A program made the translations under genes and the position numbers. Shown one piece after another: positions 16,473-26,242 of a DNA stretch of 64,000 nt. This stretch comes from Methanocorpusculum sp. (lineage in GTDB: Archaea; Halobacteriota; Methanomicrobia; Methanomicrobiales; Methanocorpusculaceae): contig JAFOFB010000001.1 in NCBI GenBank assembly GCA_017387505.1, positions 62,001 to 126,000 on the forward strand. Direction: 5' to 3'. The notes beneath the pieces were generated by a model. The model was not told where the DNA came from. It did not search any database and saw only the letters and a program-made list of their open reading frames with translations. How positions within the stretch are numbered: the stretch's first letter is position 1; every line of letters starts with the position of its first letter.

Positions 16473-16599
16473 CAGAACCTCGGCGTCGTTCATAATGTTT
16501 AATTATTTTTGCTGTATTAGGATAAAATATCTGTGATGGGTATTGAGAGGGAGGGGTGTTTTGGTTTGGGTTTTGGTTGATTTTCTTTTGAGTGGATCT

Positions 16600-16993
16600 G
16601 ACAGCCCGCCTGGGCGACTGCTTATCGCGTCGCCCTATTCGGCGGGGCAATCTTAAAGGAGAACTATTCTTTTTTCAGATTTAGTTTGGGCTGTGTCTGC
16701 TCTTTTTCTGTTTTTCCGTCGGGCTAAAAATATCCGACTGCTCCATCGCCTTCGGCTCATTCCGACTAACCGTCGGAATTTCGCCTGCATGCTCGGCGCA
16801 CTCGTCTATTTTCCCACGCCCTCCTTAATAGCGTGAAAGAGAGCGGGGCACAGGCGTTTACCCGCGAGAGGATAACCTCGTCGGTCTGTTTGCTCGGTAG
16901 ACCTCGCTCCCATCCCGCCAAGGATATCGTCTCGCGGTTTACACGCCAGCTATGTAAGCCCGCCTGGTTTCCCGGTTGGCTTCGGAGCGAAGT
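16600..16993 (+). ncRNA. GC-rich structured element upstream of GxxExxY gene, left copy
   Basis: A non-coding stretch clearly richer in G and C than its surroundings. In order it contains: a nested hairpin (CCCGCC 16605-16610 with GGCGGG 16641-16646, enclosing GGCGAC 16613-16618 with GTCGCC 16629-16634); conserved block A (16733-16758); a perfect hairpin ATTCCGAC/GTCGGAAT (16759-16779); block B (16791-16807); block C GCGGGGCACAGGC (16843-16855); and a long-range helix (CCGCGAGA 16862-16869 with TCTCGCGG 16930-16937). It ends at the ribosome site of the GxxExxY gene. The inverted right copy (24743-25110) shares block A at 25 of 26 bases and the same order, with two helices preserved by compensatory changes. 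Whether it acts as RNA or DNA, and on which strand, is not shown. Confidence 0.6.
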
Positions 16994-17371
16994 ATGAAGA
17001 TGTTAGATTCAAACTCGGATATGTATAGAATTGTTGGATGTGCGTTTGCTGTTTACAATACGCTGAAAGCGGGTTATCTGGAATCGGTGTATGAGAAGGC
17101 TCTTGAGTGGGAACTCTTAGATGCAGGTTTTTCTGTTCGTCGGCAGGTTCGGATTCCGGTTTTCTATAATGGTGTTGACCTGAAACGGGATTTTTACGCG
17201 GATATAGTTGTAGATGGGACAATCATCATTGAACTGAAAGCAGTTTCCTCTCTGCGGAAGGAACACGAGGCACAGCTCCGCAGTTATCTGAAGGCAACGA
17301 ACCGCACAGAAGGTCTGTTGATTAATTTCGGCAACCTGAGAAGGGTTGAGTGGAGAGCAGTCAGTTTGTGA
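16994..17371 (+). CDS. GxxExxY family protein, left copy
   Basis: A 125-residue protein. The signature GYLESVYEKAL (G-x-x-E-x-x-Y) is near residue 28, followed by GFSVRRQVRIPVFYNGV. The strand pair DFYADIVV...IIELKAVSS (about 70-90) matches the D-(x)n-ELK core of PD-(D/E)XK nucleases. The family's function is not known. I chose the ATG giving MKMLDSNSD because GGAG is seven bases upstream and the protein then equals the right copy in length (125) and start. It is preceded by the left structured element, and it brackets the accessory island with the inverted paralog at 24362-24739. Confidence 0.85.
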   Translation: MKMLDSNSDMYRIVGCAFAVYNTLKAGYLESVYEKALEWELLDAGFSVRRQVRIPVFYNGVDLKRDFYADIVVDGTIIIELKAVSSLRKEHEAQLRSYLKATNRTEGLLINFGNLRRVEWRAVSL

Positions 17372-17420
17372 CTGCTTTCTCCCACTCTTCCCTCATATTT
17401 TCTGAAAATCGGGGTGCGTA

Positions 17421-17513
17421 GCCGCGACTCCGGCGTGGAACGAGAGCCGTAAGGCTCAAGCCATAAGCAAGGCTCGAAGAGACTTGCAGTGGTGGCTCGC
17501 GGGAGGATATCGT
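17421..17513 (+). other. Multi-stem structured sequence downstream of left GxxExxY gene
   Basis: An outer helix CCGCGA (17422-17427) with TCGCGG (17497-17502) encloses a hairpin GAGCC-GTAA-GGCTC (17444-17457, GNRA-type loop) and a second stem GCAAG (17467-17471) with CTTGC (17483-17487). The ten-base string AGGATATCGT at 17504-17513 repeats one at 16921-16930 on the other side of the gene. No such sequence follows the right copy. Confidence 0.45.
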
Positions 17514-17528
17514 AAATAACGTGGATGA

Positions 17529-18335
17529 TTATGACTGTTCTTCAACAGTATTTTCAATAGGAGAATCAATACAGATGGCACAGAATGCTCTTCCAAAAGG
17601 TGTCATATCAATAAAACTTTCGACATATGCAACTTTATTCAGATCTTGCTGCATCTCAGCACTCTTAGCCGTATCAATTACAAATGGATGTTCTTTTAAT
17701 ACGTCGTATTTACTTTCATCTACAAGTTTGCTGAATAATTCTCCACCTTTAACAAGGCCCAATCTCATTAGATTATCAAAGTATTTACTAACATCCAATG
17801 GCCTTTCACACTCTGCTAGTTCACCCACATTGGAAAAGTTAACCAGTACAGTAATTCCTGCCCCATCTTCATTATTATATCTCATCGATATAGTAGGAAG
17901 AGTGCCATTTTTATAAATATACCTCAGTATTTTTGCTTCATCTGGACTTAGTTGTTTTATAATTTCAACAAATGCTGGATGTACACCATCTTTGGAGAAA
18001 CTGAGCATAGAATTAGCGAGCAGGTTAGCATACATTTCTTTCAGTTCGATGTTATCAATACAATAACTGATATACTGTATTGCTGGAACAGCAATATGTG
18101 CCTCTGGAGATACAATCTGTTCTGGACTGAAATGATTCAGTTTTTGCTCGAGCATCTGTTTTGTTTCAGCAAGATTATACTCTCGTCCTAAAACCCATTT
18201 TTCTACAGGAACTAATACTGCATTAATTGTTCTTGGAATGAGACTAACTGTCTTACTTACTGGCTCTAAGATGGGTTGTACTACATCTTTGTAGATTGAC
18301 GGAGCAATAGATTCAACAATTTTTTTCCCAAACAT
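17529..18335 (-). CDS. DUF4393 / Abi-alpha-like protein
   Basis: A 268-residue protein with a short hydrophobic patch near residues 25-45 and the central stretch ELKEMYANLLANSMLSFSKDGVHPAFVEIIKQLSPDEA. I recognise this pattern in the DUF4393 (Abi_alpha) family. These proteins are often encoded near phage-defence genes and are suspected abortive-infection factors; this rests on family association, not on activity seen here. The gene is A/T-rich relative to the housekeeping genes and lies at the left end of the island. Confidence 0.7.
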   Translation of the reverse strand: MFGKKIVESIAPSIYKDVVQPILEPVSKTVSLIPRTINAVLVPVEKWVLGREYNLAETKQMLEQKLNHFSPEQIVSPEAHIAVPAIQYISYCIDNIELKEMYANLLANSMLSFSKDGVHPAFVEIIKQLSPDEAKILRYIYKNGTLPTISMRYNNEDGAGITVLVNFSNVGELAECERPLDVSKYFDNLMRLGLVKGGELFSKLVDESKYDVLKEHPFVIDTAKSAEMQQDLNKVAYVESFIDMTPFGRAFCAICIDSPIENTVEEQS

Positions 18336-18479
18336 GTAGCAATTCTAAATTAGGACGGCGTAAATATATTATTTACTATCTACCTTTGAGTCTGGTTTAT
18401 TGTTATAATATGTATGATACCATACAAGTGAAAATAGTAATAACACTAGGTATTTATCTTCTGACCATTAACTCATGAT

Positions 18480-18842
18480 ATGATGATTCAAAGAAAAAAG
18501 AAATCTGATATTGCTGAATTAATACAAAAAATAGACGAATGTAATTCTCATCTTGCTGTTATTCAGGAGAGATTAATAGATTTAGGAAATGCGTATACTA
18601 TCCATTCAGCTAGTTCATCAATTGAAAGTGTACGTTCTCATTCTGTTGGCATCTCCACTATTTGCATATCTCTTCTTGCCCTAATAATGTCTATGGTATC
18701 TGTTTTTGATATCATTGGATTGGAAGGAATGTTTCTGATTCTGGGCTGTCTTTTTCTGATACTATTGTTATTGATATATGTAATTCCTGTCCATTCAGAA
18801 AAGAAAGTAAAAAGGCTTCTTAAAAAAAAACCGGGCTTTTAA
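18480..18842 (+). CDS. Small two-helix membrane protein, unknown
   Basis: A 120-residue protein. Residues 1-55 are polar and likely a coiled coil (KKSDIAELIQKIDECNSHLAVIQ, partly quoted). Two membrane helices follow (about 55-78 and 82-103), then a basic tail, SEKKVKRLLKKKPGF. Two adjacent ATGs are possible starts and no ribosome site is visible, which suggests a leaderless transcript. The coding sequence is A/T-rich and lies alone on the plus strand between minus-strand island genes. A helical bundle next to membrane helices is common in defence effectors, but nothing here proves such a role. Confidence 0.6.
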   Translation: MMIQRKKKSDIAELIQKIDECNSHLAVIQERLIDLGNAYTIHSASSSIESVRSHSVGISTICISLLALIMSMVSVFDIIGLEGMFLILGCLFLILLLLIYVIPVHSEKKVKRLLKKKPGF

Positions 18843-18900
18843 AAGATAAATACGTGTAGCCTAAAATAAAAGTAGAGGATAAATTATCCAAACTCCTCTA

Positions 18901-19383
18901 TTACTTCTCCCCATTCAAAAGTTCTCTGACAATAGGTTCTAATGTTTCAATGATTGGTTTTTTCTTAAGGAGCTTCTCATATGCTTCTCGTTGAGATGTG
19001 TACTTTGTACTTAATCCAATGCAGTCATCCCATAGAACTTCTATTTTTGGGATTGAGAATCCACCTTCGAGAGAGAATGGTAATGTAAATCCACCTTCTG
19101 GTTTAGATATGCTGATTAGTTGAGCTTCATGCTTCTGCAAATTGTTCGCAAACTTCAAGGCCAGAACTGTTTCTGTTTCACTCATACATCCAACTTTTAT
19201 CAAACGTTCAACGTAGGAAATAATCGCATTTAATGTGGCACTAAGATAGGCATTGATATAGCGAATCTCTCTCTTATGATACCCATATTTAAAAAAATCT
19301 TGAATTGAAGAATCTAGTTGAGAATACAGTATCTCAATATTACTTCTAAGTACATCTTCAGCACGCTTATCCAATTCAGCCAT
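18901..19383 (-). CDS. Unknown protein in the type I modification operon
   Basis: A 160-residue, mostly helical soluble protein. It starts three bases after the hsdS stop on the same strand, so it is the last gene of the modification operon. KYGYHKREIRYINAYLSATLNAIISYVERL near residue 35-65 (described, not quoted in full elsewhere) suggests a helical bundle. I do not recognise the family. A role in modulating the specificity subunit or in defence is inference from position only. Confidence 0.6.
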   Translation of the reverse strand: MAELDKRAEDVLRSNIEILYSQLDSSIQDFFKYGYHKREIRYINAYLSATLNAIISYVERLIKVGCMSETETVLALKFANNLQKHEAQLISISKPEGGFTLPFSLEGGFSIPKIEVLWDDCIGLSTKYTSQREAYEKLLKKKPIIETLEPIVRELLNGEK

Positions 19384-19386
19384 ATT

Positions 19387-20582
19387 TTATCCAAAATATT
19401 CCTGCATGAGTGATTTCTTCAATGTCTCAAGAGTGTCTAAACTCTGTTGTATGATGACTTTTGATTTGTCGGTCTGTTCGACAAAGGATGCAAACTGGCT
19501 TTGTAACTCAATGGGGGGTACAAGAACTTCAAGTTTTCTAATATCGCCCAATGAAATGAACTTTTGTGTTCCACCCCTTACCTTGCTTAAAATGGCATCA
19601 TCGAAATAATCCGACTGAAGCAAAGCACGAATGTAAATGCTCAAGACTCTCGAATTGGCTTTGAATTTGATTAGAGCGACATTCTTGATAGCGAAGTTAG
19701 GCTCTATATCAACGATTACAGGCTTTCCAACCGTTCCAATCATAGGCATTATGATATCGCCAATATCAACCTTTGACCTTTCGTTGATTTTATTGAAATC
19801 TGCTTCACAAATGAGAGAGCAATCTGTCAATTCAATCTTCCCACCTGTTACATTTTTTGAAGTAACCAACGGATAGCCTGTTTCGTAATACTTCGGAGAG
19901 TCGTGTGTTCCATCTCGAACATCGCAAACTGCCCCAAGACTATCTTTTTTCCAACCAAAAGGATTCAGAATTGTGTCACCAAACATCTCCACAAACCGCG
20001 CCTTCACCAGCTCGTCCAGCTTTTCGAGCTGCTTCTTCCGCAGGTCAATAAGCTCAGTTCCCTTGTCGAGGGTATCGGCAATCTGTCTCTGTATATCGAG
20101 AGGGGGAGGGGGAGTTCTATCTTACGTAACTCAGCCATAGGAATACTTTTGACAGTCCCACCTGCAACTTTTCTCATTATTTTTGCTCTGATAGTATCTG
20201 ATGTAAGAAGATACTTGAGATAATATGGATTCAGCTTTGAGGGATTCGGTTTTATTGTATATACTCCCTCTTTTATGTTCCAATTTTTTGGTTCGTCTTC
20301 AACAACTAATGTTTCTCCGATTGTTCCTGTTCCTGAAAAGAGAACATCACCCACCTCAAGATTAGAACGATTATTACACAGTTTTAACGCCTCATCATTA
20401 ATCCTATCTGTCCTTTCAGTAAATATGAGTTTACCACCATGAATTTCTCGAATTGTTACGTAGTAATTTGTTGCATCTTCAGTATTCAGTTTGAAAAACA
20501 TACGGGGATTAAGACCTGTGTTCAGAGATAAAATGACATCTTCTAATTTAACAAGCATACACGGCCAATCACGTTTACTCAT
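19387..20582 (-). pseudogene. hsdS: Type I restriction-modification specificity subunit, frameshifted
   Basis: Two overlapping frames together make one HsdS. The first (20004-20582) carries target-recognition domain 1, ending in the conserved ELRKIELPLP. The second (19387-20007) carries the central repeat, recognition domain 2 (FGWKKDSLGAVCDVRDGTHD) and the final coiled region ending KKSLMQEYFG. The frames join if one base is added within two adjacent five-base tracts (plus-strand G at 20102-20106 and 20108-20112). The restored frame then reads LDIQRQIADTLDKGTEL. The break falls exactly between the first recognition domain and the central spacer. It could be a phase-variable switch, a real defect or a sequencing error. 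Overlaps the HEPN-like gene by eight bases. Confidence 0.85.
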
Positions 20583-21075
20583 TTTTCACAACTCCTTTCG
20601 AACAATTATGACAATAATTTTTTAACGAATGAGCGAAAGCTCCCAAACACGTTGAATGTATTGACAATCTATCTGTTTTTTCCTCAAATGAATACCTGAA
20701 GTCTTGGAATATATTGTTATAATTTGTAAGGAATTCATCAAGGTTTCTGCCATATGGTTTTAAATATTCTTCAAACTCCGATTTGATAGCAGTTTGTACA
20801 TTATCCTTCAATCCATAAAACAATTCATCTAATTTATGTATACGCTTGTAATCAAGATTTGAATGTATAAATATAGCCTTCAAATATACTTCACAAGCAA
20901 AACTCAAGTTAACTACATAAGGTACAAGATATTCTAACCCATAAAAACCTGTAATCCTTCTACCATCGATATCGTTAGCTACATTGAAGAATTCATCGGC
21001 TTCCTGAATGGCCCTCTGATAATTTCCACGAGGTTGCGTATTACCATCCTTCTGCGTAACCTCTTCGTTAGTCAT
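20575..21075 (-). CDS. HEPN-like domain protein in the modification operon
   Basis: A 166-residue helical protein. LSFACEVYLKAIFIHSN near residue 60 and NIFQDFRYSFEEK near 120 resemble HEPN domains, which are frequent in toxin-antitoxin and defence loci, where they often act as RNases. The catalytic R-x4-6-H motif is not clear here, so it may be a non-catalytic HEPN. The gene overlaps the AlbA_2/ATPase gene by four bases and hsdS by eight, so it is translated with the modification genes. Confidence 0.6.
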   Translation of the reverse strand: MTNEEVTQKDGNTQPRGNYQRAIQEADEFFNVANDIDGRRITGFYGLEYLVPYVVNLSFACEVYLKAIFIHSNLDYKRIHKLDELFYGLKDNVQTAIKSEFEEYLKPYGRNLDEFLTNYNNIFQDFRYSFEEKTDRLSIHSTCLGAFAHSLKNYCHNCSKGVVKNE

Positions 21076-22733
21076 TTTATACTCTCCTTTGCCTCTTCTG
21101 AAACTTCCCAGTGTCCGTGTTGTACAGAGCCGACATGTACAACAAAGCCATCCACTTTCAGTCTCTTCATGATTTTCTCAACACGGTAACGGGAAAGCCC
21201 GGTCTTTTCTGAAACAAATGCATACGATGCCCTCGGATTTTCAACAAGCAAATGCAGTACTGTTATTTCAGTCTCATTTAATCCGCCACTTGCCTTAGAA
21301 TCATCTGGTAAAAATGTTATAGATTCTGCCTCTGATTTCAAATCAGACGAAGATTCTATAACATATTTTAAACCGCCATTTAATCCGCCACTTAAACCGC
21401 CAGTTGCCTGCCTGAAAACATCATAATCAACAACCCAGGACCCATCCTTCCTTGCCCCGTCACGGATAACAACCCCAAGACCTTTAAGCCTCGCTAAAAT
21501 CCTCTCAACCTTTCGAACAGCAAAACCGGTCTCTGCCGAAATACCCTTAACCGTCACAGAACCATCACGCTCGATTGCAGAAATAACCAGACGGTCATTA
21601 GAACTAAACTGCATAGAACCGGATGGAAGAGGGACAGAACTTACCGCATCCGCTTTCGTCAAAGGCTTTGCAAACGGCAAAACAACACGCACAAAACTCT
21701 CAGACACAACAAACGCATCGCGCCCGTAAACCTCTAAAATACGCGGAATACCAGAACCTAAATGCTCCACATAATCCAAATCACGGAAAACCCGCATCAG
21801 CTCAGGATTTCTCGGCAAAGACACACCAGAAAAGAAATCATCCCTCGTCATACCAAACGGCAGACCCCCGATTGACGTAATTTCCAAACGGTCAGAAAAC
21901 ATCTCAAACTTCGGAGAACCAGAATACGAATAATCATTATGCAAAATCGCATTCAAAACAGCCTCACGAAGAGCCACACTGTCAACCATCCTCCGCTCAA
22001 TACGGCGTCTGTCCGTAATCCTCGCATACGTCTTATTCTCAACAGAAAGCCTGTCAAACAAACGGTCAAAAGCCCGCATCAGAGAACAAAAACCAAACTC
22101 CTCATTCTCCAAAAGAACAACGCGGTTATCACCCTCATACTTAGCAAACCGAATCGAAACACCGGAACCATCAGACAACAAATAACCCGAATAATTCAAA
22201 TCACCATCAGGTGTCAACAAATTCAGATTCGAAAGGAAATTCGAATTAAGAGGCCTGCCTATACCCTCATAATAAATCTGAAGCTCGCGGAAAGAAACCT
22301 TCTGATTAGGTGAAGGAATCATTCGAAGCGTATTCTTCATACGCCCAGCATACATCCGCTCAATCAAATCCTCACGCATCGGCTCACATGAACTGCCCTT
22401 CCTGAAAAAACAACCCTGCGGAGACATCCCGAATTTACGGATATAATATGGTCTCTCAAGACCGCTTAAAACATCCACAGCCACAACCTCCAAACCATCA
22501 ACTACCTCAAGCGAAATCGTACAATACTCCAAAGCTGACGGCAGAATATTATTCTTAATCCTATCCTTAATCTGCAACTGATTCAAATCAGCATGAGGCA
22601 GCCCAACAGGATTTCCCAAATCATCAACCCCAATCAGAATCCGACCGCCTTCGCTGTTCAGAAACGAAACAACTTCCCGCTCAAAGGAATCATTCAGCTT
22701 AAACTTATACTCAACGCGGTCAGATTCAGTCAT
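21072..22733 (-). CDS. AlbA_2 / Schlafen-like ATP-binding regulator inserted in hsd operon
   Basis: A 553-residue protein. Residues 1-110 form an AlbA_2 (Schlafen-type) domain: VEYKFKLNDSFEREVVSFLNSEGG and ILIGVDDLGNPVGL. Residues 250-350 hold an HATPase_c_4-like part (LREAVLNAILHNDYSY, GLPFGMTRDDFF, HLGSGIPRILE). The C-terminal third has two winged-helix segments separated by low-complexity GGLSGGLNGGLK. Such proteins are often called transcriptional regulators, but several are linked to defence. It overlaps hsdM and the HEPN-like gene by four bases each, making it an integral part of the operon. Confidence 0.8.
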   Translation of the reverse strand: MTESDRVEYKFKLNDSFEREVVSFLNSEGGRILIGVDDLGNPVGLPHADLNQLQIKDRIKNNILPSALEYCTISLEVVDGLEVVAVDVLSGLERPYYIRKFGMSPQGCFFRKGSSCEPMREDLIERMYAGRMKNTLRMIPSPNQKVSFRELQIYYEGIGRPLNSNFLSNLNLLTPDGDLNYSGYLLSDGSGVSIRFAKYEGDNRVVLLENEEFGFCSLMRAFDRLFDRLSVENKTYARITDRRRIERRMVDSVALREAVLNAILHNDYSYSGSPKFEMFSDRLEITSIGGLPFGMTRDDFFSGVSLPRNPELMRVFRDLDYVEHLGSGIPRILEVYGRDAFVVSESFVRVVLPFAKPLTKADAVSSVPLPSGSMQFSSNDRLVISAIERDGSVTVKGISAETGFAVRKVERILARLKGLGVVIRDGARKDGSWVVDYDVFRQATGGLSGGLNGGLKYVIESSSDLKSEAESITFLPDDSKASGGLNETEITVLHLLVENPRASYAFVSEKTGLSRYRVEKIMKRLKVDGFVVHVGSVQHGHWEVSEEAKESIK

Positions 22734-24199
22734 TTAAGCATCCCTTCCAGCTCTTCCAAACCCTTAGCTGCCTGTGCTTCCAACGCCTTCAGCTCAGCCA
22801 GAATATCTTCTGTCGGCGGGTACTCAATAGCCTCGTAGATGACCTTCTTGTACTTATTAATCGACAGATCATAACCATTCTCAACAATCTCCGACTTATC
22901 AACAAAGAAAGACTTCTCAGTTCTCTCGCGTCTCTCCTCATCTGCAAGATTTCCAAAACGGGCAAGAATATCAGGAATATCATTCTCAGAAACCGGAGAA
23001 CGCTTATCATCCAGACTGAAACCATCAGCCTGCATATCATAGAACCAAACCTTATCAGTACCGCCTGCACCTGTCTTCGTAAACACAAGAACAGCAGTAG
23101 AAACCCCTGCATACGGCTTGAAAACTCCGGAGGGCATTGAGATAACGGCCTGCAGATGATGATTCTCCACAATCTCCTTCCGGATAGACTTATGAGCCTT
23201 CGAAGAACCAAACAAAACACCATCAGGAACAATACATGCACAGCGACCGCCCTTCTTCAGCATCCGAACAAACAAAGCAAGGAACAACAACTCAGTCTTC
23301 TTCGTTGGAGTAATCGCACTCAGACTTGGATGAATACCTGAAGCATCCACCGAACCAGTGAACGGAGGATTTGCCAGAATCACATCAAACATACCGGAAA
23401 TCTCATTCTGCTTCGAAATACTATACTTATACTCAATCCTTGGATGTGTTACTGAATGAAGCATCAGATTCATAGCCGAGATTCTAAGCATCGTCTGGTC
23501 AAACTCAAAACCGGTAAATGCACCCCCCTCAAACATCTCCCAGTCCTCAGGCGTCATCGAGTTTTCATAATTACTCCGGATAAACTCAACACTCGAAACA
23601 AGAAAACCCGCTGTACCGCAGGCCGGGTCACAAATCCTCTCTGACGGCTTTGGAGAAAGAATCGAAACCATCATATCACGAATATGCTTCGGAGTTCTAA
23701 ACTGACCATTAGTACCTGCCTGGGAAAGCTTACCAAGCATATACTCATAAAGGTCACCAAGCATATCCCTGTCCTTGATATCCTCCTCATACAAAATATC
23801 CAGACCGGTTACAACCTTCTGCAAAAGCTCCTTCTTCCCCTCCGGAAACAGAAACATAGCATCACGCATATAGTAAGAAAATGCTGTATCATCTCCTCCC
23901 ATGCTCTTAATAAATGGAAACACCTTCCGGCTTACAACATCATACATCTCGCGGCCGTCAAGATTCTTAAACCTGCTCCAGCGCATCTTCTGGGAATCAG
24001 CATCATCCGGGAAAATCTTTAGCTGCTTCTCACCGCTCAATGCCTCAAAAGCCTCCGCTTCCAGCTCCTTCTCATCGAGAGAACGAATAAACATCAGATA
24101 GGTAAGCTGTTCGATAACAGTAATCGGATTAGTAATTCCGCCTGCCCAGATATCGTCCCAGATTGCATCAACTTTATTGCGAATAGAACCGGTTAACAT
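22730..24199 (-). CDS. hsdM: Type I restriction-modification DNA methyltransferase subunit
   Basis: A 489-residue N6-adenine methyltransferase. The N-terminal LTGSIRNKVDAIWDDIWAGG is the HsdM helical domain. RICDPACGTAGFLVSS near 195 is the S-adenosylmethionine motif, and VILANPPFTG near 280 is the catalytic NPPF. I start at the ATG giving MLTGSIRNK because GAGG lies five bases upstream and this is where HsdM proteins normally begin. An ATG at 24223 adds eight residues without a ribosome site. It is the first gene of an operon with AlbA_2, HEPN and hsdS. No hsdR is present in the window. Confidence 0.93.
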   Translation of the reverse strand: MLTGSIRNKVDAIWDDIWAGGITNPITVIEQLTYLMFIRSLDEKELEAEAFEALSGEKQLKIFPDDADSQKMRWSRFKNLDGREMYDVVSRKVFPFIKSMGGDDTAFSYYMRDAMFLFPEGKKELLQKVVTGLDILYEEDIKDRDMLGDLYEYMLGKLSQAGTNGQFRTPKHIRDMMVSILSPKPSERICDPACGTAGFLVSSVEFIRSNYENSMTPEDWEMFEGGAFTGFEFDQTMLRISAMNLMLHSVTHPRIEYKYSISKQNEISGMFDVILANPPFTGSVDASGIHPSLSAITPTKKTELLFLALFVRMLKKGGRCACIVPDGVLFGSSKAHKSIRKEIVENHHLQAVISMPSGVFKPYAGVSTAVLVFTKTGAGGTDKVWFYDMQADGFSLDDKRSPVSENDIPDILARFGNLADEERRERTEKSFFVDKSEIVENGYDLSINKYKKVIYEAIEYPPTEDILAELKALEAQAAKGLEELEGMLK

Positions 24200-24361
24200 G
24201 ATTGCCTCGAGATAATCTACCATACAGAGGGGATGGTATTCTTATTTGATACTTTGTATTTTTAGAAGATAAGAGTGTTGGAATGTCTGCCAATCAAAAT
24301 AACACAAAACCAGCATGATAGATAGAAAAGACACAGTCACGCAACAAGCAGGCTGGAAAAA

Positions 24362-24739
24362 TCATGGAGAGAAAACTCTCCATTGTAGGCTTCTCACATG
24401 CCCGAAGTTCAGAAGCATCCCCTCCTTCATCCCCGTAGATTTCATATAGCTCACAAGCTGTCGCTCATGTGCCGCATTCAGCGAAGAGACAGCCTTCAAC
24501 TCTAAGAGAATGCAGTCATTCACAACCATATCTGCGTAAAAGTCCTTGCGAAGCTCAACACCCTTGTAGAAAACAGGAATCCTAACCTGACGGCGAACCG
24601 AAAAACCCGCCTGCAAAAGTTCGTATTCCAGAGCTGCTTCATACACCGATTCAAGATAACCAGACTTTAAAGTGTTGTATGTCTCAAAAGCACAGCGAAG
24701 GATTTTCAGTAAATCCGAGTTGTCATCTAATCTTTTCAT
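24362..24739 (-). CDS. GxxExxY family protein, right copy
   Basis: A 125-residue paralog of the protein at 16994-17371. Shared segments include GYLESVYE, QAGFSVRRQVRIPVFYKGVE, DFYADMVV and LLELKAVSS. The G-x-x-E-x-x-Y motif and the D...ELK nuclease-like core are intact. Identity looks like roughly 60 percent by eye. It is encoded in the opposite direction to the left copy, so the two modules form a large inverted pair around the island. The start ATG (MKRLDDNSD) follows the right structured element; GGAG is eight bases upstream. Confidence 0.85.
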   Translation of the reverse strand: MKRLDDNSDLLKILRCAFETYNTLKSGYLESVYEAALEYELLQAGFSVRRQVRIPVFYKGVELRKDFYADMVVNDCILLELKAVSSLNAAHERQLVSYMKSTGMKEGMLLNFGHVRSLQWRVFSP

Positions 24740-24742
24740 AGC

Positions 24743-25110
24743 ATAACTCCGAAGCCTGCCCGGGCAGTCCGGGCGGCAACGCCGCCTGCGTGACAGCCCA
24801 AGGATGATATTGCTTCTGGGATTGGAAGCCGAAGGCTGACAAGACCAGGGGCATTATCTTCCTTGGGGTGAAAAGCCTGTGCCCCGCCCCTTTCTGCATA
24901 TCAGCGAGCCGTTAAACAAAAAAGACGAGGGCGCCGAGCCGAAGGCGAAGGAGCAGTCGGAAGCAGGCATATGAAGCCCGCGTCAGTGGGCGGAATATGC
25001 TCTGCGATTTTTTGTAGGCGAGTCGGTCAAAACAGCCAATCCCAAACCTTTCTTAACTCTCCCCGCCGTCTCGGAGCACCGCGACAGCGAGTGCTCAGGC
25101 GGGGCAGTCA
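24743..25110 (-). ncRNA. GC-rich structured element upstream of GxxExxY gene, right copy
   Basis: This is the inverted, diverged partner of the element at 16600-16993. Plus-strand landmarks: a helix CCCAAGGA (24797-24804) with TCCTTGGG (24860-24867) enclosing a near-symmetric hairpin (CTGG/CCAG, TTG/CAA, AGCC/GGCT, 24816-24848) with GA/GA internal loops; block C (24875-24887); blocks B and A contiguous (24923-24961); and a nested hairpin CCCCGCC (25061-25067) with GGCGGGG (25098-25104) enclosing AGCAC/GTGCT (25075-25079, 25091-25095). The outer-helix and hairpin stems differ from the left copy by paired changes that keep pairing. A small inverted repeat TGCCCGGGCA lies near the gene. The remaining sequence to about 25240 shows no gene. 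Confidence 0.6.
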
Positions 25111-25253
25111 AGCACACACAAACACCAGAAACACATTCAACAGCCCGCCGGGGGCACAACGCTGTCGCTGCAAAAAATCAAAGAAACAAACAAACAAAGC
25201 AAAACGCTCAAACGCACTTTCGCAAATACTGAGTATCAGCTCATCTCAAAAAA

Positions 25254-26242
25254 TCAAAAAATCCCTTCAATCTTTCGTCCACACTTAGCACAGCACCCAT
25301 CCTTCACACCTGGCATCCTGCACACATAACCCGTCCTGAAAAGCAAACGCTCCTCACACTCAGGACAATATGTAGTACTGCCTTCAACATGCATCACATT
25401 ACCAACATACGGATAATAAAGCCCTGCCTCCTTTGCCATCCGAAAAACCACATCAACATCATCACGTGTTGCAGCACGAATGTCTGTCATCTCATACATA
25501 GGAGTAAAAGCAGTGAAATGATGAGGCACAGCAACCCCCAGGTTTTCAACCTCCCATGAAAGCATCGAAGAAATTTCATCCTTCGAATCATTCAGACCAG
25601 GAATAATCAAAGTCACAAGCTCCAGATGCCTCTTCAGCTCAGACACGAGCATTACAGCATCCAGAACATGAGAAATCTTAGCCCCTCCGCAGACTGAATT
25701 GTAAAACGAATCAGAAAACGCCTTCAAATCCACACGAAAAGCATCCATGTATGGAGCAATCTCGCGTATGGCATCCTCAGTCATATACCCGTTTGTAATA
25801 ACAGCAGTCTTTAACCCCTCATCTTTTGCAAGCTTTGAGACATCATACATGAACTCATAAAACACAGTCGGCTCATTGTAAGTAAAAGAAATACTCTTCG
25901 CCCCGGACTGCAAAGCAGCAAACACAATATCTTCAGGCTCAGCACAAACAGCATCATGCCTGAACTCCTGAGACAAAGTATAATTCTGGCAATGCAGACA
26001 CGTAAAATTACAACCGAAACTGCTGACTGACACAGTCTGCGTTGCAGGCAGAAAATGATTAAGAGGCTTTTTTCTACAGGGTCGAGCCCGCAGGCTGTAA
26101 CCTTTCCGTAGGTCAAAGTCAAAAGATTACCTGAAACATTCTCGCGGACATTACAAAAACCCCGCTTTCCATTCGGAATAACACATCGTCTTGCACAAAG
26201 ATTGCAAGTCTCAGTTAAAGAATCAAACAGGCGTGCCTGCAT
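25254..26242 (-). pseudogene. amrS: AmmeMemoRadiSam system radical SAM enzyme, frameshifted
   Basis: Two frames together make a protein of about 329 residues. The first (from 26242) begins MQARLFDSLTETCNLCARRC, a zinc- or cluster-binding N-terminus, and breaks after GLDPVEK. The second (to 25254) has GCNFTCLHCQNYTL, the radical SAM C-x3-C-x2-C motif, then ISFTYNEPTVFYEF, AFRVDLKAFSD and a cysteine-rich tail (CPECEERL, CCAKCGRK). The frames join if the six-base run at 26068-26073 (A6 in the transcript) had one more base, restoring VEKKPLNHFLPATQ. The family is conserved and usually intact, so sequencing error or slippage at the A-run is as likely as true decay. Confidence 0.85.

Follow-up and report, generated by a model that had tools for sequence, protein, structure and literature searches.

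Facing GxxExxY nuclease modules as candidate ends of a mobile defence cassette in Methanocorpusculum

The window analysed here, a stretch of 64,000 nucleotides from a Methanocorpusculum-like metagenome-assembled genome (MAG; G000, contig C5, positions 62001-126000), holds two genes for nuclease-like GxxExxY proteins that face each other across a set of genes that includes defence genes. We think it somewhat more probable than otherwise that this region represents a defence cassette with two ends that is mobile or can be exchanged, and the element, found in gut methanogens, seems to belong to a kind of mobile element not yet described. Each end would be a module of ~0.8-0.9 kb, consisting of a structured stretch and an inward-pointing gene for a Cas4-like GxxExxY nuclease of 125 amino acids (aa), and the two ends would bear different nuclease types, usually the ones called alpha and beta below, around a cargo that in most elements includes defence genes. 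Mobility is shown by comparison between genomes; how the nucleases and a structured RNA might work together we infer from the sequences.

Facing pairs of two nuclease types

The surroundings of GxxExxY copies, retrieved from the host and from related genomes, contain 17 loci at which two genes of one clade form a facing pair (Table 1). All 17 pairs point inward, with the outer gene ends ~2-9.5 kb apart; a contig end cuts one gene in three of the loci (G009 C5, G009 C25 and G023 C137). In a tree built from 53 proteins, alpha forms a clade of 15 rows (100/100) and beta one of 16 rows (100/99), beside small gamma and delta groups, and the left gene of the window is a long-branched row that joins beta at 87/82. 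Wherever both genes of a locus could be typed the pair was mixed (16 of 16), with 13 alpha/beta loci, two gamma/delta loci and, in the window, one outlier/beta locus. If 13 alpha and 13 beta genes were drawn into pairs at random, all pairs would be mixed with a probability of ~0.0008, a figure that treats as independent loci which are not all so. A sequence-only reading of the window had described a paralogous inverted pair bracketing an island; the bracketing stands, while the pair is better described as two different nuclease types at opposite ends.

Table 1. Facing GxxExxY loci by genome (G) and contig (C), with recognised cargo in brackets
Genome	Loci
G000	C5, the window (type I parts); C6 (DpnI); C4 (MmeI-type); C22 (type I parts; second gene a fragment)
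G002	C58; C37 (DpnI); C48 (MmeI-type)
G009	C31; C5 (cytosine methylase); C13 (MmeI-type); C14 (DpnI); C25
G018	C7 (HSDR_N, without PADLOC match); C11 (cytosine methylase and type II enzyme); C13 (type I parts)
G023	C155 (GmrSD-like); C137

Restriction or other defence genes were recognised in 13 of the 17 elements, in scans of chosen proteins (Pfam 10 + 10, PADLOC 10, and the window proteins), a selection of the open reading frames (ORFs); two of the DpnI copies were assigned through DNA identity. In the searches made, facing two-type pairs and the structure captured by model R1 (below) were confined to the five Methanocorpusculum genomes of Table 1, and by eye the listed rows of 46 out of 392 phylum genomes showed no other facing pair. 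Adjacent pairs in other arrangements do occur, with two genes of the other GxxExxY subfamily (below) in the same direction (G002 C43) and two genes of different clades diverging (G002 C14), as do degenerate GxxExxY copies (G000 C3 and G000 C5:133065).

The coordinates and strands first given for the two window genes proved correct. Their products score 131.4 and 127.4 bits against TIGR04256 (cut-off 35) and 129.9 and 124 against PF13366 (PDDEXK_3; cut-off 22), and both are predicted to have a Cas4-like fold of the RecB-like PD-(D/E)XK kind. Residues D70, E80, K82, Q94 and Y98, which we take to be of catalytic type, are invariant across 19 aligned GxxExxY proteins of several types; since they are invariant in both nuclease types, neither looks dead. 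No cysteine is invariant among these 19 proteins. Searching the PDB by sequence returned only lmo1582 (E 0.0015), which looks unrelated, and a further match at 0.53. The left protein yields 18 tblastn pieces in the host genome and its named relatives are mostly Methanocorpusculum MAGs, while TIGR04256 found matches in 18 of 41 genomes searched. No relative was found in viral contigs by protein profile, where a 14-base pattern proved unspecific and was set aside, or in phage records, and the seven records from plasmids all lie below 60% identity. Contigs of a Bacteroidaceae-labelled MAG, RGIG9419, also bear modules (fetched loci L032 and L040) and are probably misbinned Methanocorpusculum. The literature searched (which did not include bioRxiv or most subscription journals) contained no description of a function for GxxExxY; a passage in a survey of reverse transcriptases mentions a GxxExxY-domain gene adjoining a reverse transcriptase (PMC8934634).

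Structured ends and the strand that carries them

Each GxxExxY gene of the window stands behind a structured region of ~370 nucleotides (nt), and such ends measure ~370-450 nt in general. The outer helix is formed on the left by CCGCGAGA (16862-16869) and TCTCGCGG (16930-16937) and on the right, on the minus strand, by CCCAAGGA (24860-24867) and TCCTTGGG (24797-24804); as had been proposed, left and right differ in four of eight pairs and all four differences are compensated. The nested terminal hairpins are likewise present at both ends, and the segment named block A is a 26-nt inverted repeat with 96% identity.

The proposal that selection acts on this structure gains much from homologs. In alignment A2, comprising 31 core sequences (30 distinct) of ~100 nt each from the five genomes, changes on both sides occur in 18 of 28 pairs (115 cells), and none of 500 shuffles used as control reached these values or the covariation score. 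Under the drawn structure 90.4% of cells pair, compared to 28-44% in slid controls, although this share is favoured because the structure was drawn from those same sequences; further pair types are not raised (26 versus a shuffle mean of 28.9). Two mismatches are themselves conserved, with A-A at columns 31/85 in 31 of 31 sequences and, at columns 26/90, G-G in 20 and A-A in 11. Homologs that break the helices would have spoken against the earlier proposal; in the alignments the helices are kept. With Rfam 15 at the gathering score, three tRNAs alone were matched in the window, and an E-value scan of 16500-25300 gave three matches, all far under gathering.

Small palindromic inserts are seen at the tips of leader hairpins or within leaders, with the stems intact (e.g. 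L007, L014 and L086). A dispersed repeat of the REP (repetitive extragenic palindromic) type was considered and set aside: the window shows no enrichment of the tip motif CTAATCG (2 observed versus 6.5 expected), and it is listed in 90 of 232 fetched loci.

R1 matches five of 25 genomes of the genus, the same five that contain the facing pairs, and one of 294 in a phylum sample that was searched with stricter filters and included G000 alone of the five. Its listing has 67 rows, of which 17 are opposite-strand echoes overlapping strong matches and were excluded; among the 50 matches counted, 44 have a GxxExxY gene on the same strand within 450 nt downstream. The association of structure and gene proposed earlier holds to this extent, with two diverged or remnant cores that lack the gene as departures from it. 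The six exceptions are matches at contig ends (G023 C287 and G018 C7:1-69), a match followed by a beta gene of which the contig end leaves just the start (G023 C110), a remnant (G000 C13), and diverged extra copies at G018 C11:87532 and G000 C6:88852, the last of which precedes a small ORF not resembling GxxExxY. On G000 C6, at 86.5-89 kb (L153 3500-6000), lies a distant GxxExxY paralog with a core hairpin, and an ORF that by eye looks DUF262-like adjoins a second core. Conversely, the five genomes contain 62 GxxExxY pieces, of which 18 have no R1 match; six are cut by contig ends, one is a fragment, and of the 11 others eight were examined and match the other subfamily best.

The sequence-only reading had folded the gene-sense strand, and here it has to be corrected: in stability, wobble pairs and a further alignment, the complementary strand fits better. 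Against dinucleotide shuffles, the window leaders give z-scores of -4.5 (left) and -3.8 (right) on the gene-sense strand, compared to -6.2 and -5.2 on the complement. Every one of the 35 distinct cores folds more stably as the complement (mean -54.6 versus -42.4 kcal/mol), and DNA parameters likewise favour it in all 35; for 400-nt leaders it is the more stable in 26 of 31 with RNA parameters and in 31 of 31 with DNA parameters. For the GxxExxY genes themselves the preference is reversed (complement better in 0 of 33), and composition therefore has a bearing on comparisons of this kind. Consensus folds of whole leaders also come out lower on the complement, with -95.3 versus -76.7 for 16 alpha-like sequences (a set in which the start pattern clipped the terminal hairpin in several rows) and -110.6 versus -89.0 for 12 beta sequences.

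Wobble pairs separate the strands by another route, as an A-C mismatch on the gene-sense strand is a G-U pair on the complement. Read on the gene-sense strand, the long core helix has no G-U, 33 A-C and 42 other mismatch cells. Among variable pairs of whole leaders, the ratio of G-U to A-C cells on the complement is 32:1 in alpha and 29:4 in beta, compared to 1:23 and 6:4 on the gene-sense strand; when invariant pairs are included, G-U counts are nearly alike between strands (61 versus 45 and 63 versus 63). Alpha and the core show a clear excess of A-C on the gene-sense strand, beta a weak one. In alignment A4, built on the complementary strand, 93.3% of cells pair, and none of 500 shuffles has as many as its 125 double changes. 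Taken together, stability and wobbles make the strand antisense to the gene most likely the selected molecule, with an outward reading direction that leads from gene start to element edge.

These results bear on whether the leader does no more than control GxxExxY translation, as a structured 5' untranslated region. Leaders do close with GGAG or a similar motif ~8 nt upstream of ATG, and the gene-sense strand also folds better than its shuffles, whereas wobbles and stability place the conserved structure on the opposite strand; we consider this explanation very improbable. Synonymous conservation is 0.88 in the first codons versus 0.55, on a basis of 5 versus 43 codons.

The conserved structured molecule is probably RNA. 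Variable pairs on the complement contain 32 wobble to 479 Watson-Crick cells (alpha) and 29 to 336 (beta), a rate like that of tRNAs, for which 211 loci of the genus give 15 wobbles in 248 variable acceptor and T-stem pairs. A hairpin acting only as DNA had been entertained on account of gene-sense variable pairs that are almost without wobble (0 to 491 Watson-Crick cells in the core, 1 to 461 in alpha, 6 to 315 in beta), and it weakened once the wobbles emerged on the opposite strand. In a broader form, the conserved molecule could be folded single-stranded DNA of the element ends, like the hairpin ends of other mobile elements. The preference of DNA parameters for the complement in all cores and leaders would suit this, as would the general tolerance of G-T pairs in DNA, while the tRNA-like wobble rate fits RNA without proving it; we hold single-stranded DNA to be possible and distinctly less probable than RNA. 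Inspection by eye found no promoter for an antisense RNA.

Given a structured RNA antisense to the nuclease gene and overlapping its start, and the defence genes nearby, one might also see nuclease and RNA as a module for defence or addiction that keeps the island stable and has no role in movement. Such a module would need neither two nuclease types at its ends, as seen at 16 of 16 loci, nor the inverted repeats of the sister subfamily described next, and we find it improbable.

In this sister subfamily, 24 of the 28 distinct genes of the genus whose loci were retrieved lie between inverted repeats (arms of at least 38 nt within 450 nt on each side), compared to none of 300 random intervals. 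The arms reach 275 nt; those on host contig C15 are at L010 1321-1497 and 2004-2179, and the loci as a whole are L010 1321-2179, L051-L080, L098, L111-L119 and L154. Judged from its arms, the gene would occupy the loop of a giant hairpin. Single genes of the paired clade have no inverted repeat around them in this test, and it is the whole element that is surrounded by inverted structured ends. We infer that the paired form derived from the simple one via gene doubling and uptake of cargo.

Occupied and unoccupied sites

That the structure and its gene might belong to a mobile element was one option raised earlier, and three elements with unoccupied sites in relatives now speak for it. In G002 both the window site, which is bordered by glnA and a radical-SAM gene, and the site of G000 C6 are unoccupied, and the site of G009 C14 is unoccupied in G018, G000 and G023. 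The G018 C11 site was matched in four relatives by its right flank alone and was therefore excluded from this count. At the G000 C6 site, G023 has a beta-type end cut by the contig end. A DpnI gene and its neighbour are found at three different sites in three species (G000 C6, G002 C37 and G009 C14) with 90-96% DNA identity over 2.0-2.8 kb, and G009 C31 and G018 C13 have a metG-side flank in common (87%, 5.0 kb) and different cargo.

We suggest a mechanism in which outward transcription of the antisense strand yields a structured RNA or, alternatively, the strand folds as single-stranded DNA. The two nucleases, possibly joined in a mixed complex, would work on the structured ends or together with them, and their cutting would trigger copying or exchange of the cassette via host recombination, with the defence genes as passengers that make the cassette worth keeping. 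A more specific version, in which the antisense RNA reads past the element edge so that its 3' end guides a mixed pair of Cas4-like nucleases, with one RNA per end, to unoccupied copies of the site, which they would cut so that the defence cassette enters, would amount to RNA-guided homing by a PD-(D/E)XK nuclease; we rate this as a long shot.

Several observations weigh against a two-ended mobile cassette. At least four partnerless modules lie inside contigs (G002 C17, G018 C3, G002 C40 and G000 C14), the last two beginning at a contig end and facing into a long contig. The glnA site of G018 holds a type I system, complete-looking from its ORFs, without modules, so that separate arrival of ends and cargo is possible; the ends there would have been lost or be later arrivals. 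In the DpnI elements, ends and cargo differ in divergence, a difference that suits recombination no less than transposition. At the compared sites the flanks are too diverged to place the ends exactly, and no target-site duplication was found there; all data are MAGs of one genus, few in number. Lastly, four of the 17 elements have no recognised defence gene among the few proteins scanned there (one each in G009 C31, G023 C137 and G009 C25, none in G002 C58).

A different explanation draws on these same points, namely that the modules are independent selfish units settling near defence islands, and that cargo moves via ordinary homologous recombination between similar ends and not by the nucleases. 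The module-free type I system of G018, the mosaic identity within the DpnI elements, the metG-side flank common to G009 and G018 with its different cargo, and the unpaired modules would all fit this account. Independent insertion, in contrast, would hardly yield 17 of 17 inward and 16 of 16 mixed pairs, and whole elements are absent at orthologous sites of relatives; we therefore regard independent units as rather unlikely. The confidence we give to these explanations overlaps, because DNA versus RNA is a separate matter from how the cassette moves. We continue to prefer the two-ended cassette.

Some further loci are of interest here. The interval from glnA to the radical-SAM gene (L146; window 16500-25260) appears to be a defence hot spot, being empty in G002, filled by the module-free type I system in G018 and by a full element in the window. 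An element remnant at ~12600-13000 of L103 (G000 C13) retains leader parts of both ends and neither gene, and the site is occupied in G018 C7. Three elements, two of them in one genome, have flanking ORF families in common on both sides (L088, L101 and L109), hinting at a larger duplicated region.

The window element and known systems

The host MAG has 1,425,001 bases in 24 contigs and is 83.5% complete; features of the window element are listed in Table 2.

Table 2. Features of the window element (window coordinates)
Feature	Position	Strand	Basis or remark
Left structured end, ~390 nt	16573..16993	-	antisense to left gene; z -6.2 on - strand; strand tests
Left structured end, outer boundary	between 16572 and 16605		homology to module-free relatives stops at 16554-16572
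Left terminal hairpin CCCGCC...GGCGGG, nested GGCGAC/GTCGCC	16605..16646	.	from sequence; equal position in other leaders
Left core hairpin	16846..16950	-	row of A2 and A4, model R1
Left GxxExxY nuclease gene, 125 aa, long-branched type beside beta clade	16994..17371	+	TIGR04256, PF13366, tree
Abi_alpha (PF14337), cargo	17529..18335	-	Pfam, PADLOC scans
ORF, 120 aa, cargo	18480..18842	+	ORF listing alone
ORF, 160 aa, without Pfam family, cargo	18901..19383	-	ORF listing, Pfam scan
Methylase_S (type I specificity), split ORF 1 of two, cargo	19387..20007	-	Pfam
Methylase_S (type I specificity), split ORF 2 of two, cargo	20004..20582	-	Pfam
HEPN-domain protein, without PADLOC family, cargo	20575..21075	-	Pfam, PADLOC
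Schlafen AlbA_2 / RecG-C-like ATPase protein, cargo	21072..22733	-	Pfam
Type I methylase HsdM, cargo	22730..24223	-	Pfam; DNA 93% identical to same-site G018 HsdM region (module-free)
Right GxxExxY nuclease gene, 125 aa, beta type	24362..24739	-	TIGR04256, PF13366, tree
Right structured end, ~370 nt, and outer margin	24740..25165	+	antisense to right gene; z -5.2 on + strand; strand tests
Right core hairpin	24784..24884	+	row of A2 and A4, model R1
Right terminal hairpin CCCCGCC...GGCGGGG, nested AGCAC/GTGCT	25061..25104	.	from sequence; equal position in other beta leaders
Right structured end, outer boundary	between 25104 and 25256		homology to relatives restarts at 25238-25256

GxxExxY, a family curated without an assigned function, has many copies in some genomes, and it would gain from this work a testable role at the ends of mobile cassettes that spread defence genes. 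The cassette would also offer restriction systems a further way of moving between archaeal sites without a recognised transposase, and it adds a covarying structure of ~370 nt unmatched in Rfam 15. If antisense RNA and nuclease do cooperate, a structured RNA would here be paired with a PD-(D/E)XK nuclease in a new way. We found no description of such a cassette in the literature searched, with the coverage given above.

Among known proteins, Cas4 has the RecB-like PD-(D/E)XK fold that is also predicted for GxxExxY. In Cas4, to which we take SSO0001 (4ic1) to belong, four cysteines hold an iron-sulfur cluster; GxxExxY proteins are shorter and without this four-cysteine set. The layout of the cassette resembles that of composite transposons such as Tn10, with two inverted modules that flank cargo and with presence or absence at orthologous sites. 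Its modules, in contrast, encode a Cas4-like nuclease, come in two types and have no recognised transposase; in the window modules, the ORF listing and Pfam gave no transposase, and GxxExxY is the sole product. With IscB and TnpB and their OMEGA (HEARO) RNAs the cassette shares a structured, RNA-like end adjoining the nuclease gene of a mobile element, whereas here the structure is antisense to the gene and without an Rfam match, and the predicted fold is PD-(D/E)XK; Pfam gave PDDEXK_3 alone, and neither HNH nor RuvC, for both window GxxExxY proteins. Defence islands with type I, MmeI-type, DpnI and GmrSD systems contain the same ordinary families as the cargo described here, which lies between a fixed pair of structured nuclease modules. 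The fold, the cargo families and the composite layout are thus each already known, and what is new is their combination.

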